Shown here piece after piece: positions 2,988-7,253 of a DNA stretch of 36,036 bases (the first letter of the stretch is position 1; each line of letters starts with the position of its first letter). The notes under the pieces were generated by a model. That model searched no databases. It had not been told where the DNA came from and saw nothing but the letters and a program-made list of their open reading frames with translations. A program made the translations under genes and the position numbers. The stretch is from an uncultured Synergistales bacterium (GTDB lineage Bacteria; Synergistota; Synergistia; Synergistales; Aminobacteriaceae): positions 1 through 36,036 of the forward strand of contig CAJODC010000004.1 in NCBI GenBank assembly GCA_905233215.1. The letters are read 5' to 3'.

Positions 2988-3803
2988 TCAAAAAATATCT
3001 GCCGTTGTCGAATATACTTCCATTGCTCCCAAGTCATCAAAACCGAATGACTCATAGAACGGAACTCCTGACGGCGTTGCCTGTAGTACGATCTTTCTGC
3101 CTTTCGACAGTCCGCAAATCTCGCTCATCATCGAAGAAGCTATACCCTTCCTTCTGAGTTCGGGAACGGCTGCGAAGTAATACACTCCAATCATGTCAGC
3201 CTCATTCGTAACAAGAAAAGCTCCAGCGTCAATCCCGTCAAGTTCAGCGATGTACATCAACATTCTTTCATCATCACAGAAGGCTCTAGCTAGAGCGATA
3301 TATGCCTTGTACGCAGCCGACTCCGTGCTGCCTCCGTATTCAAACGCTGACCACTCACACTTCGCCCACTCATCGGAAAGAGAATGATTCGTTACGGCTT
3401 TGAACTTTACGGAAGGGTTGACTCTTTTTGTTACCGCTCGTGAAGGCTCAAGGCTCATTGCCTCAAGGTGTCCTGCATGAACGAGTCCGGCCTCCTCAAG
3501 AACGTCAAATCCTCCGTCATAAACAGGCCACATGAATGTCTCACAGCGTTCGGCAAAAAATTTCATCGCCTTCTTGACCGTCTCAACGTCAGAAACTTTT
3601 TCAGGATAATTCACAGCCTGAAACAATCCGTTATGACTGCTCGAAGCGTCAGAAATCTTTTCGGGATAATATACCCAGTTCTCGAACTCATTGCCGGTCG
3701 AAACACAGTAACCTTTATCGCTGAGTGTCAAACTCTCGCTGATGCTGAAAGATCGCAGGCAGCCGCAAAAAAATCCAAAGTTCCTCCAAACATCTTGTAT
3801 CAT
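2988..3803 (-). CDS. GNAT-family N-acetyltransferase
   Basis: Predicted acetyl-CoA-dependent N-acetyltransferase of 271 residues. The C-terminal half holds the GNAT core: a strand reading MIGVYYFAAVPELRRKGIA, whose R-R-K-G-I-A is the pyrophosphate-binding motif A (R/Q-x-x-G-x-A), then an amphipathic helix and the VPFYESFGF stretch typical of the last GNAT strands. The N-terminal ~130 residues lack a recognised motif and may be a second, degenerate GNAT fold; the acceptor substrate is unknown. The start chosen is the ATG at 3803, which overlaps the preceding stop as TGATG and has GGAGGAAG upstream. An upstream in-frame codon at 3827 would overlap the previous gene further and lacks a placed ribosome binding site. 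It is the last gene of the slt-tilS-hook-GNAT unit. Confidence 0.8.
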   Translation of the reverse strand: MIQDVWRNFGFFCGCLRSFSISESLTLSDKGYCVSTGNEFENWVYYPEKISDASSSHNGLFQAVNYPEKVSDVETVKKAMKFFAERCETFMWPVYDGGFDVLEEAGLVHAGHLEAMSLEPSRAVTKRVNPSVKFKAVTNHSLSDEWAKCEWSAFEYGGSTESAAYKAYIALARAFCDDERMLMYIAELDGIDAGAFLVTNEADMIGVYYFAAVPELRRKGIASSMMSEICGLSKGRKIVLQATPSGVPFYESFGFDDLGAMEVYSTTADIF

Positions 3804-6259
3804 CAAAAAACTTCCTCCATTCCGCAAGTCAACATCAAGTCCCTGATTGCCGGGATAATCTCGCCGTTAATCTTCTCACGGTAAACATCATCGTCATTGC
3901 TCATCTCGGCAAGTTCAGTTTTCAATTTCACAACCATCTCGTTAATCTCGTCATTAGTCCTGCTGAGTCCGTCAGACTGAAGCTCAAGAATTTTCGCTCT
4001 CGTATTCTCCCTCTCAGCCGTCAGCGTCAAGTCAGCCTGTGTCAACTCTCTCAATCTGTTCTGAAGGTCTCTCCTCTCGTCAGCAGTCAGACATGCCGAA
4101 GCGTAATCTTCCTCGTTCCTGAAACCTAAAGCGAGAAGTCTCTTGTTGAAGTTAATCTCGTGGCGTTGAAGCTCCTCACGTCCTGTAGCTGTCTCGGTCT
4201 CAAGAGTGTGAATTGCCGTCTGTACCCTGTCAAGCTCACGGGATTTAGCGTTTTTGTCCTCCCGTCTTTCGTTGAGCTGTGAACGGAGAGACTCGACTCT
4301 GGCGTTCATTCGTGAGATTTCGTCATCGGGATTTCTTGACGCGAAGAGTATTATTCTCTGCTGTTTCACCGAATCTCTTTCTGCTTCTACAGATTTCACA
4401 CGGCTTGAAAGCTCATCTCGTTTCAGCCTCAATGACTCCTTGTTCTTTTTGAGGCTGGTCATTGCGGCGTTTGCGGCTGATAAACTCCGTTCAAGTTCAT
4501 CACGTTTGAGCGAGTTTGTTTTCCAGTCATTCATTCTTTTTTCGAGAGCTTCAACGATTATTGACGGGTCTTTGTCGGGGAGCGTCTTGTAACCGTAAGG
4601 CATAATCTGCTTGATTAACTCACGTTTGAGACTGGCGAGAATTTCAGCCTGAGTTTTCGTTTCCGTGTCTAACCGTTCTTCTTCTGAGCGTGCGTTCTGC
4701 ATGACAAACACTGCGTCTTGATGAATGCGTGTGATTTCGCTTCGTGTTTCACGTATCTTGTCGAGTTCGTCTTTTGCCGACTTCATGTCCCGTTCTGCCG
4801 TCTCAGCAGCATCAGCAGCGTTGCGGGCGAGCTGTAATGTGTCTCGTGTCCTTTGGTGTTCACGGTCGATCTCTTCAAGAGGCGGAATGCCTGCTCCTAT
4901 CTTCAGTCCTAAAAGTGATACGGCTGTTGAAATTTCAGCGTTGATTTCGTTGATTTTTCGTTTCAGTTCTGACTCGTCCCGGTTGACAGTCGTAATTTCC
5001 TCGCTTAGTACACCGGCTCTTGACTGTCTCGATGTTAAAGCGTCACGAAGTTCGTTGAGTGCGCTTTGAGTTTCCTGTAACTGCCTGTGAACTTCATCGG
5101 GGTCAGGTATCAATGAGCCTGAAGTGTAAGGGTGTGTCATTGATCCGCAAAGGGGACAGGGCGCGCCGTCCTGCAAAAGTTCACGGACAGCTTCAATGTC
5201 TTCGATACGTCTGAGGAGAGCGGCTCTCTTTTCGAGTCGTTCTACTTCGTTCTGAAGCTCATGAATTTTCCCTGACTGTTCAACCTCTCTGATATTTAGT
5301 GTCCTTGTCTCCTGCTGAATGCGTAATCGAATGTCCTGAAGTCCCTTGAGCTTTTCTTCAAGGTCTCTGACTTCCTGAAACTTTCCTCGAAGTTCATCAA
5401 GTTCAGAAAGTTTTTTGAGGCTTTTATCACAGACATCACGCCATTCAGTTATCGTCTTTCCCTTCAGAGTATTCTCGAAAAAAGCTCTGGCTCTTGTGTA
5501 TTTCCTCTCGATGACTGAATAACGGTGGTTCACGTCTGATAACAGGGCTGACCTATCGTTGGCTGTGCTTTGAGCTTGGAGCTTGGCCTGAATTGCCTTT
5601 GACCATGAAGACTTCAGAGAGTTATATTTCTCGTCAGCGTCATGATACATCGAATAACATTTCCGAATCCCCTCAAGCCCAGTCAATAACCTCTCGTCTA
5701 AAGAATGCTGCTGTAAAAATTTCCTGACTTCCCTCAATGAAAGTTCGAGGCGTTCAAGATCAGTCTGTTCAGTCTCAGTTTTTGACGAACACTCACGGTA
5801 TTGTCGTTCTGTCTCCTCGTAATCATTTTTGGCCTGAACTGCTGCGTCCTGCCTGTCGATGATCTGGAAATCGAGAGCCTTAACACGCTGAATCAGTGTA
5901 GAGAGTTTTGACTGTTCGGCGAGCTTGTCGCGGTATTCAGATTCGGCCAGCGTGAACGCCCCTTCAGCATTCTGAAGGTCATTGCGTGCCCTCGTCAATT
6001 CATCACGGAGCGAGTCTTGTTGAAGATGCTTTTTGACTAAAAGTTCCCTCAAGTCCTTGATGATTTCGTATTCCTCGCCAAGTTCGAGAGTCTTACCGCC
6101 TTTTTCGAGTCTCTGCTTTGACGGAACGAAAAGAGCGTTTTTCCTCTCTAGGTCAGCCCTTTTAGCGTCAAGGTCCTTCAGAAGTTCATGACAATGTATC
6201 TCTTGGGACTTGTGCTGAAGTACCCGCCTCAATTCCTCAAAACGTTCAAGAATGGTCAT
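3803..6259 (-). CDS. SbcC-like coiled-coil zinc-hook protein lacking both ATPase lobes
   Basis: An 818-residue, almost wholly helical and charged protein. At about residues 368-371 it has Cys-Pro-Leu-Cys-Gly followed by Ser-Met-Thr-His-Pro, the SbcC/Rad50 zinc-hook signature, flanked by two long coiled-coil arms of similar length. The stretch near residues 43-66 (LFVPSKQRLEKGGKTLEL) and the later region around EEDYASACLTADERRD resemble the arms of bacterial SbcC. A full SbcC is about 1000 residues and starts with a Walker A lobe and ends with signature/Walker B motifs. None of these is present: no GxxGxGKS, no LSGGE. The protein ends just where the C-terminal lobe should begin. Starts at ATG 6259 or TTG 6262 fit the AAGGAG site at about 6271-6277. 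It overlaps tilS by 14 bases and the GNAT gene by one, implying translational coupling. No sbcD lies in the window. An SbcC-derived architectural protein is my inference. Confidence 0.75.
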   Translation of the reverse strand: MTILERFEELRRVLQHKSQEIHCHELLKDLDAKRADLERKNALFVPSKQRLEKGGKTLELGEEYEIIKDLRELLVKKHLQQDSLRDELTRARNDLQNAEGAFTLAESEYRDKLAEQSKLSTLIQRVKALDFQIIDRQDAAVQAKNDYEETERQYRECSSKTETEQTDLERLELSLREVRKFLQQHSLDERLLTGLEGIRKCYSMYHDADEKYNSLKSSWSKAIQAKLQAQSTANDRSALLSDVNHRYSVIERKYTRARAFFENTLKGKTITEWRDVCDKSLKKLSELDELRGKFQEVRDLEEKLKGLQDIRLRIQQETRTLNIREVEQSGKIHELQNEVERLEKRAALLRRIEDIEAVRELLQDGAPCPLCGSMTHPYTSGSLIPDPDEVHRQLQETQSALNELRDALTSRQSRAGVLSEEITTVNRDESELKRKINEINAEISTAVSLLGLKIGAGIPPLEEIDREHQRTRDTLQLARNAADAAETAERDMKSAKDELDKIRETRSEITRIHQDAVFVMQNARSEEERLDTETKTQAEILASLKRELIKQIMPYGYKTLPDKDPSIIVEALEKRMNDWKTNSLKRDELERSLSAANAAMTSLKKNKESLRLKRDELSSRVKSVEAERDSVKQQRIILFASRNPDDEISRMNARVESLRSQLNERREDKNAKSRELDRVQTAIHTLETETATGREELQRHEINFNKRLLALGFRNEEDYASACLTADERRDLQNRLRELTQADLTLTAERENTRAKILELQSDGLSRTNDEINEMVVKLKTELAEMSNDDDVYREKINGEIIPAIRDLMLTCGMEEVF

Positions 6260-7253
6260 CAAAGAATACAACTCCTTTTCCGCCTTTTACAGTACAGTTT
6301 TTCTGCCACTGGAAAATGAAGGGGCTTTTTTTGCTGATAATGAGCCTGCAAAGTTCGCGGCATCTATTTCTTGAGAGAGTACGAAGTTTCAGCCTTCTGC
6401 CCATTTCACGAAAGACCAGTACAAGTTCTCCAATGTCGTAGGAAGACAATTCTTTTCGGTCAAGAGTTCTCTGGTCAACAAGAACGGTATCAGTGAGAAA
6501 AACTCCTATATTATCTTCGCTCTCACGCAAAGGTCTCATGTCTTCGCCGAACTGAGCAATATGTTCAACAGCGGAAGAATTGATGTTTTCTTCGATTAAG
6601 GGCAGAAGTTTCAGCCTGATGAAATTTCTCGTGTAACTGTCATCATTGTTGGAACTGTCATCACGCCATTTAAGCCCTCTGACTCTGAGGACATCACGCA
6701 AAAGTTCCCGTCTAAGTCCCAAGAGAGGCCGGTAAAAAGTAACGCCGTCATGTTCGCTCTTCTCAGTCATTCCGACACTGCCTCGAATGCCTGTACCCCT
6801 GATGAGGTTGAAGAGGATAGTTTCGGCTAAATCGTCCCGATTGTGTCCGAGCATCACGGCATTTGCCCCGATTGATTTCGCTGTATCGGCTAGGGCTTTG
6901 AGTCTGAGCCTTCGTGCTGTAGTTTCTGTTGACTCTCCTTTGAGTTTTGACGAAGGCACATCGACTTTTACTGACACGAAAGAGACACCGATTTTTCGGG
7001 CGAATTTTTCTGTGAACTTTTCGTCTTTGTCAGCCTCTTCGCCTCTTATGCTGTGATTGACGTGAACAGCCGTGATTTTTCCGTCAAAAAAAGAACGGAA
7101 GAGCCAAAGCAGAGCGATTGAGTCGCCTCCTCCTGAGACAGCTACAGCTACATCATCAAAATCATGCCAGCCCTGAAATTCTCCTATGGCGCGGAAATAT
7201 TTTTCCAGAATATGGTCTGACAAGTCGTAAGGTATATTATTGTTTGGCATCAT
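6246..7253 (-). CDS. tilS: tRNA(Ile)-lysidine synthase
   Basis: Cytoplasmic ATP-dependent enzyme that converts the wobble cytidine of tRNA-Ile(CAU) to lysidine so that it reads AUA. Residues 40-45 are SGGGDS, the PP-loop that binds ATP. They are followed by HVNHSIRGEEAD and GHNRDDLAETILFNLIRGTG, the two next most conserved TilS blocks, and by the RDDSSNND...TRNFIR region that closes the catalytic domain. The remaining ~130 residues are a shortened tRNA-binding C-terminus; 335 residues is at the low end for the family. Two adjacent ATGs (7253 and 7250) are possible: AGGAGG lies 4 bases before the first and 7 before the second, so the second may be preferred. It overlaps the slt stop by 17 bases and the zinc-hook gene by 14. 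Confidence 0.93.
   Translation of the reverse strand: MMPNNNIPYDLSDHILEKYFRAIGEFQGWHDFDDVAVAVSGGGDSIALLWLFRSFFDGKITAVHVNHSIRGEEADKDEKFTEKFARKIGVSFVSVKVDVPSSKLKGESTETTARRLRLKALADTAKSIGANAVMLGHNRDDLAETILFNLIRGTGIRGSVGMTEKSEHDGVTFYRPLLGLRRELLRDVLRVRGLKWRDDSSNNDDSYTRNFIRLKLLPLIEENINSSAVEHIAQFGEDMRPLRESEDNIGVFLTDTVLVDQRTLDRKELSSYDIGELVLVFREMGRRLKLRTLSRNRCRELCRLIISKKSPFIFQWQKNCTVKGGKGVVFFDDHS

Follow-up and report, generated by a model that had tools for sequence, protein, structure and literature searches.

The window, which is the whole 36,036-nucleotide stretch analyzed here from an uncultured Synergistales bacterium, encodes a protein that, judged by its sequence, is an SbcC-derived arm-and-hook protein with no SbcC ATPase; we call it headless. 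Comparison with relatives shows its gene to descend from the long-arm SbcC of the sbcD-sbcC(-GNAT) locus of the family. SbcC is a DNA-repair protein, the Rad50 of bacteria. This evolutionary history is well supported by comparison, and the function is inferred. The gene, its parts and its neighbors are:

3803..6259, minus strand: headless SbcC-derived gene, 818 codons plus stop (ATG at 6259, TGA at 3805-3803).
5177..6259, minus strand: N-terminal arm, residues 1-361, helical in the AlphaFold2 model and homologous to the N-arm of long-arm SbcC.
6080..6139, minus strand: conserved base node of the N-arm, residues 41-60 (NALFVPSKQRLEKGGKTLEL), together with the hook the lowest-entropy block.
5129..5158, minus strand: zinc-hook motif CPLCGSMTHP, residues 368-377, kept in 30 of the 31 aligned orthologues.
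3824..5101, minus strand: C-terminal arm, residues 387-812, mostly helical by prediction and past residue 765 a poorly conserved tail.
4040..4159, minus strand: conserved base node of the C-arm, residues 701-740, conserved in intact SbcC too.
6246..7253, minus strand: tilS, upstream, its stop (6246) overlapping the headless start by 14 bp; genomic context, outside the SbcC derivation.
2988..3803, minus strand: GNAT acetyltransferase, an inherited sbcC neighbor whose likely start (ATG at 3803-3801) overlaps the headless stop in the sequence TGATG.

The ORF of 818 aa is intact, with the CPLCG...HP hook, both arms and no ATPase motifs, as the earlier note had read it. The features that mark an SbcC are only partly there. 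The zinc-hook CxxC is at the arm apex (residues 368-377, which form the apex in the model), and the long arms are homologous to those of SbcC, with 26% identity over 729 aa to the G041 protein (E 4e-34) and ~30% over 736 aa to that of G104. By Pfam and by alignment with SbcC orthologues, there is no N-lobe with Walker A, and the protein stops before the C-lobe that would hold the signature and Walker B. No sbcD/Mre11 partner adjoins the gene, the neighbors being tilS and GNAT. The profile check that had been proposed agrees: Pfam yields no match at E 0.1, AAA_23 being absent, and NCBIfam yields only weak SbcC/Rad50/SMC coiled-coil matches. We found no convincing head remnants in the DNA flanking the window gene (best head-query match E 0.68). 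A genus-wide search of the flanks for frameshifted heads gave one clear match (L050, E 1e-4), which is the gene's own tail and is homologous to the C-side of a pseudo-head relative (G097).

AlphaFold2, run on a single chain with 35 aligned sequences, predicts the arm-hook-arm form that had been anticipated (mean pLDDT 83.5, pTM 0.32; the low pTM may be expectable for a long hairpin). The model has helices to residue 361, a non-helical, low-confidence hook stretch at 362-386, and helices again at 387-812. In structure it most closely matches chains of MukB, condensin, Smc5/6 and Rad50; a sequence-profile search against solved structures gave nothing at E 0.01. The protein is net acidic (pI 5.3-5.6), so that DNA binding is not obvious.

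One could suppose that this is half of a split SbcC, with ATPase heads supplied in trans from another gene, and the genome does contain 13 AAA_23-like matches. We consider this extremely unlikely: the four matches above the cut-off have lengths fitting SbcC (885), SMC (1121), RecF (337) and RecN (548), length being the basis on which the non-SbcC ones were named; there is no head gene next to the locus; and in relatives the fused heads decay in place, with no relocation.

The headless gene is present in 39 of the 43 same-genus genomes examined, and two of the four without it have a completeness of at most 86%. Carriers include contigs of 305 kb and 597 kb, and named copies come from ruminant-gut and other Synergistaceae, some labelled Fretibacterium. 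All copies clear of contig ends are ~805-835 aa with zero internal stops. Related genomes thus carry the same gene after tilS, where the earlier note had suggested looking: an SLT transglycosylase and tilS precede the headless copies wherever the contig permits a check, and GNAT usually follows. Two members of the genus have tilS in another context with no headless gene (L141 of G018 and L140 of G092). The window's TilS is itself short (335 aa, 6246-7253), matching only the N-terminal TilS profile, and its usual C-terminal domain seems absent.

For nine pairs within the genus dN/dS is 0.07-0.17; by region it is 0.06-0.12 in the arms, 0.03-0.10 around the hook and 0.19-0.27 in the tail. The sole aligned orthologue to have lost CPLCG, in G005 (L044:4947-7400), has an open 817-aa frame on a long branch, with an omega of ~0.16. 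The occurrence in 39 of 43 genomes and the low dN/dS together indicate that the gene is neither damaged nor an artefact, and conservation, dN/dS and the long contigs rule out a damaged gene or an assembly break. The claim that this is a maintained headless hook protein rather than a decaying gene therefore stands. A functionless, decaying SbcC relic would fit the stepwise decay of heads in relatives, the absence of the gene from some genus members and the hook loss in G005, but it is very unlikely, as it is already contradicted by the selection data across the genus; moreover, no copy has a stop, conservation exceeds that of tilS, GNAT and the active SbcC, and the protein was repeatedly retained after head loss.

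We searched 183 genomes of the order by profile; relatives turned up in other genera of the family, and they line up as a graded series. (a) In intact loci sbcD is followed by an sbcC of ~1230-1250 aa (at most 1296, the start being uncertain) with Walker A, LSGGE and DEGFG; these are found in G104, G099, G102, G101, G109 and G108 and in the outgroups G041 and G159, and a GNAT gene follows sbcC in G104 and G106. (b) Two genomes have a full-length protein with broken motifs and no adjoining sbcD: in G103 the Walker B DEGF has become DGGF and the H-loop is altered, and G111 has LSEGE, DDGF and an H-loop changed from SHV to SNA. (c) In G079, G088, G097 and G098 there are pseudo-heads from which every Walker motif is missing, and GNAT lies downstream wherever the contig permits a check; G082 lies near this stage and was left out of the staging, as N runs flank and enter its gene. 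(d) Headless proteins comprise every complete copy in the window's genus together with those of G076 (806 aa, with GNAT after a small gene) and G107 (772 aa). G088 has two pseudo-head copies at contig ends (L120:7512-10292 and L121:4985-7807) with arms 85% identical, which reflects either gene duplication or a MAG that mixes two strains.

This series bears on two earlier claims. Both heads had been thought to be lost cleanly; the intermediates of the relatives show gradual decay first. The place of the gene between tilS and GNAT had been called unusual; in a sister genus GNAT comes after intact sbcC too, which makes it an inherited neighbor, and the upstream tilS was seen, among the loci examined, solely in the window's genus. 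The GNAT beside sbcC in G104 (L122:9980-11236) and G076 (L124:9468-10743) is fused to or preceded by an extra region which, by eye only, resembles a hydrogenase-maturation-protease domain.

Loss of the heads at least twice independently is well supported by a maximum-likelihood tree of the 730-residue arms. The headless proteins of the genus are nested in the pseudo-head clade (100/100), and those of G076 and G107 group with the ATP-dead G103 inside the intact clade (100/100); the starred branches of this tree force two changes, and grouping all headless proteins in one clade is rejected (p-AU 2e-187). Orthologues with full ATPase lobes, which had been named as a possible sign of a local deletion, do exist in other genera of the family; the deletion reading fails, since the loss is fixed and repeated. 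G111 is placed among the intact SbcCs on a less certain branch (85/80), which would make it probably a third inactivation, so that the ATPase was probably inactivated at least three times.

Arm length stayed fixed throughout. In every row that covers both, from the outgroups to the headless proteins, L51 and the hook are 317 residues apart (313 in G005), and from the hook to Q733 there are 364-368 (exceptions G159, 373, and G005, 359). Both headless lineages start 44-57 residues before L51 and end 33-105 past Q733; truncation thus converged on similar points, just headward of the node pair (residues 41-60 and 701-740).

Sequence constraint is inverted along this series, to judge from pairwise identities: the heads are better kept in intact SbcC and the arms in the ATPase-less lineages. 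In intact long-arm pairs the head lobes are 71-91% identical, against 48-79% for the arms. In pseudo-head pairs (leaving out G082 and the comparison of one G088 copy with the other) the arms are 38-72% identical against 20-67% for the lobes, and are higher in every pair. Six species pairs of the genus give identities of 64-80% for the headless protein, against 36-50% for the arms and 64-69% for the heads of the resident SbcC; in nearly all the same loci the headless protein is more conserved than tilS and GNAT as well. These figures weigh on the proposal that the arms and hook were borrowed from SbcC for a DNA-unrelated structural spacer, a cytoskeleton-like rod of fixed length. Arm length kept to the residue, net acidity and the disappearance of all recognizable DNA- and ATP-handling parts speak for such a rod, but a pure spacer would have no need of 64-80% arm identity, the arms of intact SbcC evolve faster than the heads, and the decay series runs via full-length SbcC forms; we regard it as unlikely.

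A separate complete sbcCD had been suggested as a thing to look for elsewhere in the genome, and it is present: sbcD and sbcC encode 399 and 884 aa (resident sbcC at L042:7950-10604 in G000), and the genome's single sbcD sits with this other sbcC. The resident SbcC belongs to the same superfamily and has local similarity to the headless protein near the hook (27% over 188 aa); with its complete ATPase, its sbcD partner and its shorter, fast-evolving arms, it is not the parent of the headless gene. Of the 38 genus members tested, 35 have sbcD and 35 have sbcC. Outside the genus, G079, G088, G097, G098, G111, G107 and G082 have sbcD and sbcC elsewhere in the genome, G076 (only 70% complete) being an exception, and genomes with an intact long-arm pair have no further sbcD above the family cut-off. 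Nearly all carriers thus have a second sbcCD, and it seems that the old SbcC was replaced in its enzymatic role but retained for its hook and arms. Two very different kinds of second SbcC exist (internal branch 1.12, in a head tree otherwise poorly resolved), so that displacement probably happened more than once. It does not explain every case, since G103 (98% complete) has an ATP-dead full-length SbcC (L127:6117-9905) and no sbcD was found in its genome. Resident sbcC genes with an in-frame stop were seen in G021 (C25:54249-56660, TGA) and G111 (C30:1349-3886, TAG); the active SbcC of these two may be lost or mis-assembled.

The co-occurrence of the two systems raises the main rival explanation, which we hold doubtful: the headless protein might regulate the resident SbcCD through mixed hooks, either blocking normal pairing as a dominant negative or titrator or linking SbcCDs at longer range. 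Such a role would accord with the sbcD and sbcC found in nearly all carriers, with the similar CPxC...HP hook of the resident SbcC, and with G018 (96% complete), a single case in which the headless gene, sbcC and sbcD are missing together; an engineered hook-only human Rad50 likewise binds wild-type Rad50 and is dominant negative (PMC4782334). It is harder to square with resident SbcCs that are very different in the two headless lineages, with mismatched arm lengths (an 884-aa resident against long-arm SbcC), with constraint on the whole arms beyond the hook alone, and with purifying selection on the hookless G005 protein.

The reading that we prefer, at a probability of roughly 45%, is that the headless protein is an SbcC descendant displaced by a second sbcCD and now acts as an ATP-independent tether or scaffold in the form of a zinc-hook homodimer. 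The second sbcCD would have taken over the nuclease work, displacement being the presumed cause; as the comparison of relatives shows, the old sbcC lost its sbcD partner, its ATPase motifs decayed and its heads finally disappeared, with arms and zinc hook staying under strong selection. The product is predicted to be a single antiparallel coiled-coil hairpin of ~50 nm (0.15 nm for each of the ~360 residues of a helix). Judging by hook motif and model, zinc at the hook would dimerize two hairpins into a constitutive two-armed rod or V, and the Rad50 hook has been described as a constitutive dimerization module (PMC6969161). Base nodes and arm surfaces may then bind DNA or a protein partner; the acidic pI makes a protein partner as likely as DNA. 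Headless constructs of B. subtilis SMC and of cohesin remain able to compact DNA (PMC4725763), and thus arms plus a dimerization module can act on DNA without heads. Against the hook-dimer model, the hookless G005 gene keeps its open frame at that omega of ~0.16.

The nearest known relatives are the long-arm SbcC/Rad50 proteins of other Synergistaceae (e.g. G104, L122:6198-9950), which share the orthologous arms, the CPLCG...HP hook and the 317-residue base-to-hook distance; a downstream GNAT is common to the headless locus and the long-arm sbcC of G104 and G106. Unlike them, the headless protein is without Walker A, signature, Walker B and an sbcD partner, and its arms are the conserved part. 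ASRP and LmuB give weak profile matches over its arm regions. A zinc hook is found in RloC as well (PMC2610378). By their descriptions, ASRP, LmuB and RloC carry ATPase heads, which are missing from the window protein. Membership in LmuB (Lamassu) is not indicated, the matches being to arm regions only (best E 6e-08) with no heads, and no Lamassu-like neighbors were recognized at the locus. As a defense system the gene was rejected, having only coiled-coil matches, to LmuB and JetC, and a phage origin likewise, phage records giving zero matches and viral contigs only three, all partial and at 21-24% identity. Engineered headless SMC and hook-only Rad50 (PMC4725763, PMC4782334) similarly consist of arms or hook plus a dimerization module with no ATPase heads, but those are laboratory constructs, whereas the window gene occurs in nature, is conserved and is under selection. 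We found no description of a natural headless SbcC/Rad50 in the open-access literature, most subscription papers and preprints being outside the scope of that search. Tentatively, these proteins may form a new class of ATPase-free, Rad50-derived zinc-hook rods, an ATP-independent chromosomal or repair tether that arose at least twice after SbcC displacement.

The role of Rad50/SbcC arms and hook beyond the heads has mostly been approached with mutants. Here is a natural experiment in which the heads were lost, the distance from base to hook stayed the same to the residue and the arms show higher conservation than the active SbcC of the same species. At least two head losses in gut bacteria of the Synergistaceae, with arms and clasp under strong selection, suggest that arms and clasp are useful on their own. 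An ATP-independent arm-and-hook function is directly testable, with natural intermediates at each stage; if it is true, the arms and hook of Rad50 would have a function that selection can act on apart from ATP hydrolysis and the Mre11 nuclease.
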